This document shows, piece by piece, positions 6,252-16,408 of a DNA stretch of 64,000 bases. Every line of letters begins with the position of its first letter. Positions within the stretch are counted from its first letter, which is position 1. A program made the position numbers and the translations under genes. The notes beneath the pieces were generated by a model. It made no database searches. It had not been told where the DNA came from and saw only the letters and a list, made by a program, of their open reading frames with translations. The DNA is taken from positions 55,500 to 119,499 of the forward strand of contig JACGCM010001504.1 in the NCBI GenBank assembly GCA_014058105.1, given 5' to 3'. This stretch comes from Kingdonia uniflora (lineage: Eukaryota; Streptophyta; Magnoliopsida; Ranunculales; Circaeasteraceae).

Positions 6252-6941
6252 TCTATACTACTAAAGGAAAAGTAATAGAATGAGACCCGATCTCGCCCGT
6301 CAATCCGAATCCCCAACACAAACTTAGAAATATCAAAGCCTATCTTTATAACCTTAAAATGAGGAGCCATTGGATGTATTCGGCCAAAATCATTAAAAAC
6401 CAATATTTTTTGCCTGCCTAATTTACTATTCTCAATTATTAACTTTTAGTCTAAAATAGGTATACAAAATTGTCATATTTGAATTGTTAGAGGGTAGTAT
6501 TGTATTCCTCATTTGTGCCCCTGCCAAAAACACCAATAAAATTAAATCAGGATGGGTATTTATGTAGTTTCATTGAACTAATTTTGATATTTATACTACT
6601 CACCTCCTAAGCCTCAAACTACAGTTTACTCGTATCAACCTCTCCAGCTCCGAATACCTCTATTTTGCGAAATCGGGGAACTTATAAAAAGTAAATTGGG
6701 AGGAGTCAGGGTTCTGGTATGGAATCAATTAAAGTTATGGTGTTATTGGTTCGTTCAATCATTATCTCTAAAGATCAAACAATTTTTAAAATAATCCTAA
6801 ATTCAAAATAAGTAAATCAAATCCAACGACACACAAATATCATGTAAGTAATCGAATATTTGTTTCATATAAGTTAGATTGATGTTTTTTCGTTTGATTT
6901 TGTGTTTTTTAGGTTTAATATTGACCTAATCGAGTAAAATT

Positions 6942-6957
6942 GGGTATTTCTGCAGAT
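6942..6957 (+). repeat. Left target-site duplication of the TOC1 retrocopy
   Basis: GGGTATTTCTGCAGAT matches 9352-9367 (GGGTGTTTCTGCAAAT) at 14 of 16 positions. The pair brackets an intronless gene copy ending in an A-rich tail. Confidence 0.75.
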
Positions 6958-7135
6958 TAGCAGATGTACTAACATGCGCCCTCACCTCACTCCTGAAAGA
7001 GAGTAGTTTGATACTTTGGGAGCTAATACTGTGGGATTCAATTTTGGGTCTTTGTAAGTTTGGATTTGCTCTAAATATGGAGTAATTTGATGAAGAGACT
7101 AGAGAGGGTTTGGATTGAATCGAGGTGTTGCTGAG

Positions 7136-8710
7136 ATGGAGAGTAATATTAATGACAATAAGGAGGAGAGTAGTAATAACCCCTTTGTTGATCGAAGTAA
7201 AGTTTGAATTCTTTTGTGCTATAACGATGCGTAAAGCTCTGGGGAAGTTCTTGCACTTCATTCTAATTGTTACTATCAAGTGACATCAGTGAGAAGACCA
7301 AGACAAGTAGTCAATGCCCTTAATATGGAGGGACCTGATATCGATATCATACTGACCGAAGTTAACCTTCCAATTGCCAAAGGCTTGAAGATGTTGAAGT
7401 ACATCATGCGGGATAAGAACTTACGATGCATTCCCATCATTATGATGGTTGCTCAAGATAAGGTTTCTACTTTTATCAAGTGTTTGAGATTAGGGGCAGC
7501 TAACTATCTTGTGATGACGTTATGCACCAATGAGCTCTTAAACTTATGGACTCACATGTGGAGAAGAGGACGAATGCATGGACTAACATAGAAGAAGATC
7601 TTGAATTATGACTTTGATTTGGTTGCATCAGATCCCAGTGTTGCTAATACAAACAGCACAACCCTATTCTCTGACGACACAGATGACAAGTCGTGAAAAA
7701 GTTACTTCCCAGATGTGAACATGTGGTCTCATCGAGAAGAGGAGTCCAACGACGCGGTATCTATGAAGCCTTTAATGAGGAGTTCATTCGAATATCACCC
7801 TAATGTACCTAGGCCGATTGAGCAAATAGGAAATTTTATCTCATTTCATAAGAAAAGCCAACTGAAAATTGGTGAATCTTCAGCATTCCTTACTTATGTT
7901 AAATCAAGTATTCCTCAAAGAATATCTGAAAGGGTTGGCTATGTTGATGGAAGTGCTGCTAAGCCGGACCATTCAAGAAAGAAAAAAAATCTATCACCAT
8001 CTAAGCAAGTTGGTGCGGATGCCCAGAGACATAAATTTTTGATATACAGGAGAATTACTCTGGAAATGGTCTTCCGGGCAGTGGAAGTGGTCCAGAGACA
8101 ACTTATGTTGAGAGGTGTACTCTAGTTACATCAGAGTTTCCACAAGGAAAAAACTCTAGCGAGGAACAAGTTCCTAAGGTACCGATGCATGAAAGCAATA
8201 ATGCTCAAGTTAATCCTTCGGGGGTAGCACCACTCACTCATTTACCCTATTATATGTCGAAGATGATGAATCAAGTTATGATGTCTCAATTATATCAGGC
8301 AAATCTTCTTAACTTTCCAAAGCATGCCACTTCGACCATGATGCCTCACTACAATTCCATCCCACAATGTCCACCGCATTTACCTATCTTTTCATATTTG
8401 TGTCCAACCGGGAGGAGGTGTAGGTCAAATATCTGTCGGCCAAGTATGGTCCACAATCGCAATATCATCTTCGATTGAGGTGAAACCAACTCGAGTTGAA
8501 AGAAGAGAAGCTGCACTCACGAAGTTTAGGCAAAAGAGAAAAGATCGTTGTTTCGAAAAGAAGATTAGGTACATCAATCGGAAGCGACTTGCTGAGAGGA
8601 GGCCTTGTGTAAGAAGATAGTTTGTGAGATAGATGAATGGTGTAGACGTTGATCTTAATGGCTGGCCTGCTACTATTGAAAATTTTGAGGAAGAGGAGGA
8701 ACTTGTTTAA
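7136..8710 (+). pseudogene. TOC1: Processed pseudogene of TOC1/PRR1 (pseudo-response regulator)
   Basis: TOC1/PRR1 is an evening component of the plant circadian clock, a nuclear protein with an N-terminal pseudo-receiver domain and a C-terminal CCT domain. The copy starts at ATG 7136. A single frame encodes the receiver region to about 7590 ('GPDIDIILTEV', 'KGLKMLKYIMRDK', 'LRLGAANYL', 'NELLNLWTHMWRR'), with in-frame stops at about 7205, 7238 and 7589. It continues through 'ILNYDFDLVASDP' to about 7690. Middle-region segments lie at 7715-8125 and 8185-8470. The CCT domain lies at about 8486-8620 ('[17 protein letters not shown]', '[16 protein letters not shown]'), then an acidic tail and stop at 8708-8710. 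Functional TOC1 genes have several introns and this copy has none. With the flanking duplication and A-rich tail it is a retrocopy. Several stops and frameshifts make it non-functional. Confidence 0.9.
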
Positions 8711-8852
8711 CTTGAGGGTGATGCCTAGGGATATTGATATTGAGTGAGGCCATGGTTTATTGAGGAGGAGCACTTCCATTTTTGGTAATGCTTCCATATT
8801 GGATGTATGCAGATTAGCTAATTTGTGATGATTCACTTTGATGTACAATTAT

Positions 8853-8999
8853 TCCATTACTATCAGAGAAGAGGGAAAGAGTAACTGATGTGAGATAAGA
8901 GCAATGCTTAAAGAAATATGCCTAGTATGTCCATTACCGTCAGAGAAGAGGGAGAGAGTAACTGATGTGAGATAAGAGCAATGCTTGAAAGAAATATGC
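8853..8999 (+). repeat. Tandem duplication in the retrocopy 3' untranslated part
   Basis: A unit of about 70 bp (8853-8920) containing 'gtaactgatgtgagataag' recurs at 8931-8999 with a 78-bp period and a few substitutions. Confidence 0.8.
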
Positions 9000-9330
9000 A
9001 TGCGCTTCCTTTGTCTGGTGAAAGTTGTATTGTTTCTTATCAAGGTTTGAGCATACATGACATGCTCCTCTTACCCACAAGTGAAGATGGTCTGGCGTAC
9101 GGCATGATGGTGTGTTAATGAAGTCTACATGAGAAAAAAATGAATGTTTAGTCCTGTGTATTATTTTGGAGTGAAATTGCTTATGGCATGCTTATATTTT
9201 TGTAACCCCAGTTCTTTTCCCGGCTTATTTTGCTTTCACCAACAGTGAATCTGTGTACCTCAACTGGCATAGTAACATTTCCTTATGTTGTTGGATCGTA
9301 CGATGCCCTGAATGAGAATGTCTTTTATCG

Positions 9331-14933: not shown

Positions 14934-14985
14934 TCAAAAATTCGGGATAAGGAGAGAATCCTACCAGACATTGGATTGATGTTAT
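14934..14985 (+). repeat. Short ubiquitin-coding fragment fused to the beta-galactosidase exon
   Basis: From 'caaaaattcgggataaggag' the sequence matches 15100-15145 of the ubiquitin remnant (including 'agagaatcctaccagac') with a small gap. It directly follows the beta-galactosidase codons for GQVWI. The frame reaches a stop within four codons. Confidence 0.7.
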
Positions 14986-15082
14986 GTATAAGCATATTGC
15001 ACCTTTTAGTCTTACATGGTAGCAGGACTTAATGGCAATTTCCTAAAATTGATTGGTGTTCCACAACAAAAACTTGGGAGGT

Positions 15083-15246
15083 TTATCGACAATGTGAAGG
15101 CAAAAATTCAGGATAAGGAGAGAATCCTACCAGACCAACAGAGATTGATCTTTACAAGTAAATAACTCAAAGATGGGAGGTCTCTGGCAGACTACAACAT
15201 CCAGAAGGAGTCCACCCTACACTTGGTTCTTAGGCTGAGAGGTAGT
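15083..15246 (+). pseudogene. Truncated ubiquitin monomer of a polyubiquitin remnant
   Basis: The reading starts at Ile23-Asp24-Asn25 of ubiquitin and runs to the C-terminus in one frame ('[11 protein letters not shown]', 'QQRLIF', '[18 protein letters not shown]'). A TAA replaces the codon for Gln49, and the final Gly76 is Ser just before the next monomer's Met. The first 22 residues are missing. It is joined head-to-tail to 15247-15480, as in polyubiquitin genes. Confidence 0.85.
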
Positions 15247-15480
15247 ATGCAGATATTTGTTAAGACTCTCACTGGGAAGATGATCACACTTGAAGTGGAG
15301 AGCAGTGATACGATTGACAATGTGAAGGCAAAGATTCAAGACAAGGAGGGGATTCCTCCATATCAGCAAAGGTTGATCTTTGTCGGTAAGCAGTTGAAAG
15401 ATGGACACACCCTTGCTGATTACAACATCCAGAAAGAATCTACCCTGCATCTTGTCCTTCGTCTGCGTGGTGGTCATTGA
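15247..15480 (+). CDS. Complete but divergent ubiquitin monomer, probably non-functional
   Basis: ATG 15247 opens 77 codons: 76 ubiquitin residues plus a terminal His, then TGA 15478-15480. A single extra residue after Gly-Gly is usual for the last monomer of plant polyubiquitin. Gly75-Gly76 and Lys48 and Lys63 are kept. Against the invariant plant sequence there are five replacements: Thr12Met, Asp39Tyr, Ala46Val, Glu51Lys and Arg54His. Ubiquitin is almost unchanging in plants, so this points to relaxed selection. The preceding monomer is broken and no promoter is visible. The 3' flank (15481 onward) looks like an ordinary polyubiquitin trailer. It lies in the Helitron. Confidence 0.75.
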
Positions 15481-16375
15481 GCACTTTTGTTTGTGTGTCA
15501 TCCATGTGGTTTAGTACTAGTAATAGTTTTTACTTTTTGGTTTGCACTTCCTGGCCCATCAGTCACTAGACATCTTTTTGGGTTTTATGTTAAATATTAT
15601 CAGTACTTTTCTTCATCAGTTTAGTAACTTTGAATTACTTGCTCTTTGTCATCTGCTATGAGATCATTTACAATCTTGGGTTTGCCTTAGCAATTTTGTT
15701 ATGTTATAAACATCCTTGATTCAGTATGATATCATTGTCTATATTGTAGTTTTAACTTTTTTTACAGAAACTGAGAGGTTTAGTAGGGATGGAGCCATAA
15801 AATATATATAGTGACAATAGTGTGTAATGTGCTTGAAATTACTTGTTCATGTAAATAATAATATTTTCAAATGTATTTAATGAAAACTATCATCCAATAG
15901 TTTTGATTCCTCCCCAGCTGTAGTAAAAACGCGTCTACAAATTATAAGTTTTAATTACTGTATGCACCTTTCAAAGAGGTATGAATTCTAATGCAGGAAG
16001 ATCCCCAGATCAGAACCTCAAACTATGATCGTGAAAACAACTCTAACATTTCCAGGACCCCTCTGAGCCTCTTGCGATGTATGCCCTTGAAGGCATACGT
16101 TGTTTCTTTGTATTATGTTAGATTGTTGTTCATCCAAGTGAGTATGACATACAACAAAGTCAGGATAATAAGAACCCAATGCACAAATACTTTCTTGGAA
16201 AATGATCAACGTTTTGAATTTTTGAGTATAAATACCAAGCCTCAGACCTCAGGCGTACACAACATAATAATAAACCTAAGTGTAACAACATTACAAGAAA
16301 TCTTACTCTATTTCTTTTTTCCCACGAGAATTCTTAAAATCGCCAAAATATATAACAAATTTTCAAATTATTTAA
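15481..16375. other. Helitron 3' interior, polyubiquitin trailer then unassigned
   Basis: T-rich sequence following the ubiquitin stop, probably its 3' untranslated region for a few hundred bases. ORFs at 15991-16389 are unrecognised and run into the Helitron terminus. Confidence 0.35.
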
Positions 16376-16408
16376 GGCACACGCGATAGCGTGTGCCCGA
16401 TTGCTAGT
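16376..16408 (+). other. Helitron 3' terminus: hairpin and CTAGT
   Basis: A 9-bp perfect stem (16376-16384 with 16389-16397) with loop GATA, then six bases, then CTAGT at 16404-16408. The next base, T16409, is host sequence continuous with the ASR-block flank. Confidence 0.92.

Follow-up and report, generated by a model that had tools for sequence, protein, structure and literature searches.

Gene-capturing, non-autonomous Helitrons have been described in maize (PMC3288121, PMC2267711, PMC2575219). In the excerpted text of these papers, the maize elements have TC/CTRR ends, insertion between A and T, a 3' palindrome of 16-20 bp, a 5' end of the ATCTnTACTAC type and captured host-gene fragments, and vacant sites serve as proof of their insertion. 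The element from Kingdonia uniflora that we describe here is like them in each of these respects, whereas its hairpin sequence is different, its cargo includes a near full-length processed copy, and its host is an early-diverging eudicot. A GIGANTEA-carrying Helitron of Lolium/Festuca (7501 bp, non-autonomous, TC...CTAG, 16-bp hairpin, A/T; PMC2702305) resembles the Kingdonia element in carrying a clock/flowering gene and in interrupting homology to another locus; that paper also puts the palindrome of plant Helitrons 8-12 bp ahead of the 3' end. The GIGANTEA piece extends into the fifth exon and retains its introns (DNA capture; PMC2702305), whereas the PRR1 piece in Kingdonia is intronless.

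In Brassica napus, as in Kingdonia, gene pieces captured by Helitrons are dispersed genome-wide, and the excerpted text of that survey, which compared exons with elements by BLASTN, describes no retrocopy; the term processed pseudogene appears once in the survey, outside the excerpts (PMC11986588). Likewise, no Helitron with a processed retrocopy is named in the titles and abstract openings searched; the subscription literature lay mostly outside this search, and we make no claim of a first report. The Kingdonia element is of a known kind, the gene-capturing plant Helitron, and what is unusual about it is that a retrocopy of a clock gene has been spread and that the proof of insertion is internal and clean.

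Boundaries and empty sites

The window, that is, the whole 64-kb stretch of DNA that was analysed, contains at 6252-16407 what is almost certainly a non-autonomous, gene-carrying Helitron belonging to a large family in Kingdonia uniflora. Its boundaries and surroundings are as follows.

6252..16407, + strand: complete non-autonomous Helitron, 10,156 bp, TC...CTAG, flanked by the host bases A at 6251 and T at 16408, from empty-site alignments and family members
6252..6530, + strand: 5' terminal region, beginning TCTATACTACTAAAGGAAAAG, common to other family members and to two Rep-carrying elements
15780..16407, + strand: 3' region common to group I and group II members
16376..16397, + strand: 3' hairpin, GGCACACGC-GATA-GCGTGTGCC, then 6 nt, then CTAG
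16404..16407, + strand: 3' terminus CTAG (CTRR type), boundary fixed by the empty site
17317..17813, - strand: host ASR gene of copy A1, open, with two exons; the lower bound is approximate
18672..18673, no strand: empty site 1, A/T, adjoining ASR copy A2
46587..46588, no strand: empty site 2, A/T, adjoining ASR copy A3

The 5' end carries the TC (position 6252 reads TCTATACTACTA), with its boundary fixed independently by the empty site, and the 3' palindrome comprises 18 paired bases lying 6 nt ahead of CTAG and 10 nt ahead of the end of the element. A perfect 9-bp stem followed by 6 nt and CTAG/T is unique among the sequences ahead of the 436 CTRRT sites on both strands of the window, and no 9-bp perfect hairpin occurred at such sites in 40 dinucleotide shuffles of the window. 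Folded as single-stranded DNA, the hairpin has a z of -5.07, with none of 200 shuffles equally good. On the minus strand, an 8-bp perfect hairpin lies ahead of a CTRRT site near 47962, and no minus-strand 5' end matching the pattern used occurs in the 64-kb window. A search of viral contigs with the hairpin gave no matches. Scans of the window returned no tRNA and no Rfam match at gathering scores, and its tandem repeats were uninformative on the Helitron question.

Alignment of the flanks shows that the join 6251/16408 runs unbroken into both in-window empty copies, at 18672/18673 and 46587/46588, each A/T. The copy at 46.6 kb has one additional C five bases ahead of the join, so that it is exact at A/T and not letter-identical. 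Three more copies of the flank exist elsewhere in the genome, all uninterrupted, and thus five of the five other copies found are empty. Both these alignments and the flanks of family copies show that the insertion point lies between an A and a T and that no target duplication was made. The position of the join is ambiguous by one base, because a T is present after the host A and also after CTAG, and the limits 6252-16407 were chosen by the Helitron convention TC...CTAG. The landing site is downstream (3' flank) of ASR copy A1, which belongs to an array of ASR genes, and since the site is occupied in one array member while the other copies found are empty, the insertion postdates the duplication of the ASR flank.

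An earlier note on this DNA had proposed a complete Helitron ending at 16408. Its termini, hairpin and empty sites bear this out, but 16408 is the host T and the true end is 16407. The two in-window empty sites that it placed exactly at A/T are confirmed by the alignments, the number found in the genome being five and not two. It also held that such internal proof of insertion is rarely available, which does not stand: paralogous empty sites are standard evidence for insertion, not rare. Its remark that no Rep or helicase is visible agrees with our Pfam search, in which none of the 76 ORFs of at least 45 aa has either domain. Non-autonomous Helitrons are not defined by a Rep/helicase of their own, and its absence is expected.

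The Helitron family in the genome

Genome searches covered the Kingdonia uniflora assembly (1.0 Gb), and sharing of the termini, tested genome-wide, was found at both ends: exact matches number 26 for the 3' end and 140 for the 5' 21-mer, against none for either in controls. Among the 3'-end matches listed, with 40 of 310 candidates scored, 40 of 41 (window included) extend to the last base of the query. Forty of the matches lie outside the window; we sampled 20 of these, in table order, plus the window itself (n = 21). CTAG, which was part of the query, is present in all 21, and the next base, absent from the query, is T in all 21 as well. The 400-base 3' flanks of these copies are unrelated, one repeat match excepted. 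By script, the hairpin stem is perfect in 15 of the 21, and one of the six others fails solely through a longer loop. Eleven 5' ends were read (the window, eight of the 13 mapped stretches where a 5' end was found, and the two Rep elements); the preceding base is A in 11 of 11 and TC is intact in nine. The internal junction 7835/15780 is common to the five group II copies fetched (5/5). Two copies, on C235 and C1450, match the window Helitron in both ends and in the order of their cargo, apart from some insertions and deletions.

Two elements carry Rep, on C397 and C1612, and their link to the window Helitron was read at the 5' end alone. In the C397 element, Rep (PF14214, 7.5e-45) and PIF1 (6.5e-62) lie on the same strand behind the 5' end of the Helitron family. 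Among the matches listed, no scored family 3' end has a scored Rep match within 15 kb of it. Rep/helicase from such relatives would move the window Helitron in trans, by rolling-circle (peel-and-paste) replication.

The alignments by themselves give no polarity to the event, and one could suppose that the Helitron was already in the ancestor of the ASR blocks and later disappeared precisely from the other copies. A putative somatic Helitron excision reported in maize offers a precedent for loss, as far as the excerpted text goes (PMC2267711). However, with five of five other flank copies empty at the same A/T, several exact losses would be required, and the family, whose flanks are unrelated, has dispersed through insertion; we consider ancestral presence highly improbable. 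It is just as improbable that the two ends come from separate nested or unrelated events that together resemble one element. Extra insertions are indeed frequent in family members, some of which have the 5' region twice, but both ends meet in one clean join at the empty sites, and the co-linear copies on C235 and C1450, with both ends and the same cargo order, contradict separate events. An assembly artefact has the smallest chance of all: there is one assembly only and the window lies at a contig end, yet the Helitron hallmarks are exact at each of the two joins, and family copies with other flanks are numerous. Insertion of a single Helitron is the reading that we retain.

Captured genes and the PRR1/TOC1 retrocopy

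The Helitron carries pieces of a response regulator with CCT (the core circadian-clock gene PRR1/TOC1), a beta-galactosidase and ubiquitin, in line with the earlier count of at least three unrelated host genes. The mRNA origin of one cargo piece and the multi-copy state of the whole cargo element had gone unnoticed there. The cargo features are as follows.

6942..6957, + strand: left 16-base repeat flanking the retrocopy, candidate target-site duplication
7136..8737, + strand: processed (intronless) PRR1/TOC1 pseudogene, coding part, with stops and two frame shifts
9332..9351, + strand: candidate poly-A tail, an A-rich stretch closing the retrocopy on its 3' side, kept in 3/3 other copies reaching here
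9352..9367, + strand: right 16-base repeat flanking the retrocopy
11471..14937, + strand: beta-galactosidase fragment, 8 exon pieces, introns retained
14935..14969, + strand: 35-bp duplicate of the element's ubiquitin 15101-15135, at the beta-galactosidase junction, 97% identity
15085..15480, + strand: polyubiquitin fragment, with partial monomer 15085-15246, last monomer 15247-15474 and stop

The PRR1 piece is near full length, residues 6-547 of 567 aligning at 7106-8686 (tblastn, P0001). It is continuous across residues 6-320, where the genuine PRR1 gene (C2318:312961-327053) is split, and letter by letter against that gene two introns are exactly absent, at 7442/7443 and 7576/7577. The PRR1 piece is shown to derive from a spliced mRNA, and the beta-galactosidase piece, with its introns retained, to have arrived as DNA. 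The cargo is decaying, and in the window copy it probably has no protein function. Because the same cargo order is common to other copies, the cargo was gained ahead of amplification; it may have been built up stepwise via read-through or template switching.

LINE-type machinery would have made the PRR1 retrocopy, either within the Helitron or within DNA taken up afterwards. That the copy was captured from a host locus already holding it, as opposed to retroposition into the Helitron, is a serious contender at slightly below an even chance. For retroposition into the element, the retrocopy is bracketed by the 16-base repeat, and among group I copies both sides are traceable to one sequence. 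The repeat is imperfect in the window, chance equalling its match in 21/2000 or 16/4860 pairs. An arm on C478 without PRR1 matches for another nine bases beyond the left repeat before giving way to other DNA, so that the candidate insertion boundary of the retrocopy is in doubt. This arm stops near the same point and does not continue into the retrocopy's right flank, which favours capture, as does the exon-like appearance, by eye, of the sequence right of the retrocopy.

PRR1 retrocopies occur at 18 loci or more, and at 10 of the 18 the beta-galactosidase is also present in the same cargo order. This count comes from 81 matches (120 candidates, 77 scored), with a retrocopy locus defined by a best match of E < 1e-13; two places on C1 about 11 kb apart were taken as one locus, and the genuine gene and weaker response-regulator and CCT matches were left out. 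An end of the Helitron family lies close to 13 of the 18 loci, in a check that omitted C1040, C1810, C2318:711957, C2358 and C1349. In the group II copy on C2053 the PRR1 receiver frame is open for 244 codons, stop to stop. It is a very unlikely and speculative proposal that the Helitron-spread retrocopy has an effect, with its open frames giving rise to a truncated clock protein or acting on the genuine gene via small RNAs.

This locus provides one closely documented Helitron, in its empty sites, family, cargo and parent gene, that mixes DNA-captured and mRNA-derived gene pieces. The succession of captures could be worked out from its many copies, and gene annotation in Kingdonia uniflora may count Helitron cargo as genes.

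Insertion site and its empty copies

The element occupies window positions 6252-16407 (10,156 bp), because its flanks, joined at 6251|16408, align without a break to two empty copies of the same flank in the window (18572-18800 and 46489-46720). The earlier note had placed the element at 6252..16408; its start stands, but the true end is 16407, and 16408 is the host T. The two in-window empty sites it described are borne out, with the join continuous at A|T in both (18672/18673 and 46587/46588). The upstream match to these copies covers about 95 bp, consisting partly of imperfect tandem repeats. 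Similarity in the right flank extends for about 140 bp, after which there is a second, MITE-like insertion, and the ASR blocks resume beyond it with their genes on the minus strand:

17.3-17.8 kb, minus strand, ASR gene
19.4-19.9 kb, minus strand, ASR gene
47.3-47.8 kb, minus strand, ASR gene

The MITE-like insertion (window 16547-16955) has inverted ends of about 15 bp, GAGCATCTCCAGCAG / CTGCTGGAGATGTTC, and is present in the first ASR copy (A1) and missing from the other two (A2 and A3); A2 is without the KIEKEQQY stretch. We found an ASR protein of Kingdonia uniflora with 91% identity to the window's ASR, and an additional ASR protein, P0241, is probably encoded outside the window. Another, P0258, is filed as Proteus mirabilis on a 2.2-kb contig and is probably plant contamination. 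Elsewhere in the window, retrotransposon open frames were seen by eye only at 28.8-32.9 kb (minus strand), 35.4-36.5 kb (plus) and 43.2-43.6 kb (plus), and a 154-bp tandem array of 4.4 copies lies at 52461-53127.

The right flank is present six times in the genome (6/6 candidates scored), three times in the window and once each on contigs C448, C1705 and C1469, where none of the three 201-base stretches read is interrupted at this A|T. Against the window left flank, the copies on C1705 and C1469 align gap-free across all 100 bases compared. Because these two are nearly identical to each other, and the C448 copy is similar to that at 46.6 kb, the five empty copies are not wholly independent. 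All five flank copies found other than the element's own are empty, and the element therefore inserted later than the duplication of the flank.

Shared termini and possible helper elements

The 3' hairpin (16376-16397; folding z = -5.07) is the sole perfect 9-bp hairpin preceding CTRRT in the 64 kb, and none occurred in 40 shuffles. The earlier note had proposed a genome search for shared termini, and such copies exist: hairpin plus CTAG has 26 exact genome matches and the 5' 21-mer has 140, vs 0 for each control. With the last 108 bases as query, 40 of the 41 matches listed extend to the final base (40/310 candidates scored). We sampled 21 3' ends, comprising 20 fetched from the 40 matches outside the window and the window copy. 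The following base is T in 21/21, and the stem is perfect in 15/21 by script and also, by eye, in L014, which has an 8-nt loop. The 400-base 3' flanks are mutually unrelated, with the exception of one repeat hit. At the 5' end, A precedes in 11/11 ends read and TC is intact in 9/11. At one sampled locus (L028), TCTCTACTAAAC directly follows the CTAG 3' end, possibly representing a second Helitron arranged head-to-tail.

As the earlier note had held, the element has no visible Rep or helicase (0/76 ORFs by Pfam search). Rep domains are abundant in the genome, with at least 150 present (150/996 candidates scored, 150/150 above cut-off). Contig C397 carries a 5' end with 91% identity to that of the window over 278 bp, and a Rep domain (7.5e-45) and PIF1 helicase (6.5e-62) lie downstream of it on the same strand. 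On C1612, a 5' end 89% identical over 281 bp is followed after about 8 kb by a Rep match. Among the 3'-end and Rep matches listed across the genome, no family 3' end is found within 15 kb of a Rep match.

Gene pieces carried by the element

Three gene pieces were identified in the element, every one on the element's strand, in keeping with the earlier count of at least three host genes:

from within 6942-9367, element strand, PRR1/TOC1 retrocopy
11471-14937, element strand, beta-galactosidase piece
15085-15480, element strand, polyubiquitin fragment

Derivation of the PRR1 piece from an mRNA is secure. Residues 6-547 of the 567 in Tetracentron PRR1 (P0001) match the element in three frame segments without intron gaps, and the matches to the genuine PRR1 gene on contig C2318 are dispersed across 14 kb. 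The genuine exon borders correspond exactly to the window, with GT-AG introns gone at 7442|7443 and 7576|7577. Over 466 bp, the window copy shows 92.3% identity to three genuine-gene exons, and six other copies show 93.2-96.6% to the same exons. Six introns are described for maize PRR1 (PMC9126661), and introns 3-5 are named for Arabidopsis TOC1 (PMC4035800). A 16-base repeat lies on either side of the retrocopy (6942-6957 and 9352-9367), with an A-rich run immediately upstream of the right copy. This repeat is a candidate target duplication, and two results count against a clean one: chance scores equalled the pair in 21/2000 and 16/4860 trials, and a PRR1-free arm of the C478 family copy shares 9 bases beyond the left repeat before other DNA begins.

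The beta-galactosidase piece consists of eight exon pieces with introns retained. Of five beta-galactosidases compared per exon, K. uniflora P0200 (GIB67_021069) is generally nearest to the element, with an E-value far from the best; the likeliest genuine gene is on C1969 (57/629 candidates scored). The annotated end of P0200 is out-of-frame beta-galactosidase, as in the Helitron copies on C1 and C235, and the model may derive from Helitron cargo or from the misreading of a gene. The polyubiquitin piece carries 13 changes per ~303 non-synonymous sites (4.3%), one a stop, relative to the universal ubiquitin protein. A 35-bp ubiquitin piece at the beta-galactosidase junction is consistent with template switching. 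Tandem repeats of 77-bp and ~52/105-bp units occur at window 8853-8999 and 10466-10746.

Family history

Group I copies (C235, C1450, C1, C756 and C847) have parts of the long cargo in common at ~84-94% identity, with indels, and both ends are present in C235 and C1450. In group II (C1085, C138, C2053, C2030 and C478), PRR1 at 7835 is fused to 15780, with an identical junction in 5/5. Members on C2527, C7, C1105 and C1008 share the 3' end and little interior; C2527 and C1105 also share the 5' end, and the C1105 member carries an NPH3 gene fragment (L025:6462-6824, minus strand of the locus). The C478 copy (L036/L023) has a doubled 5' region, a direct repeat 97% identical over 675 bp and ~10 kb apart, whose first copy continues into the apparent start of a different gene. 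PRR1 retrocopies occupy at least 18 loci, and beta-galactosidase matches accompany PRR1 at no fewer than 10 of 18, in the same order and strand. This sharing of cargo among family copies indicates that the cargo was assembled before amplification.

The closest published parallel that we encountered is the GIGANTEA-bearing Helitron described in Lolium (PMC2702305), in which GIGANTEA retains its introns, whereas those of PRR1 are spliced out here. The element is an ordinary kind of Helitron with unusually complete evidence, and its uncommon component is a core clock gene copied in spliced form and spread by a DNA transposon.
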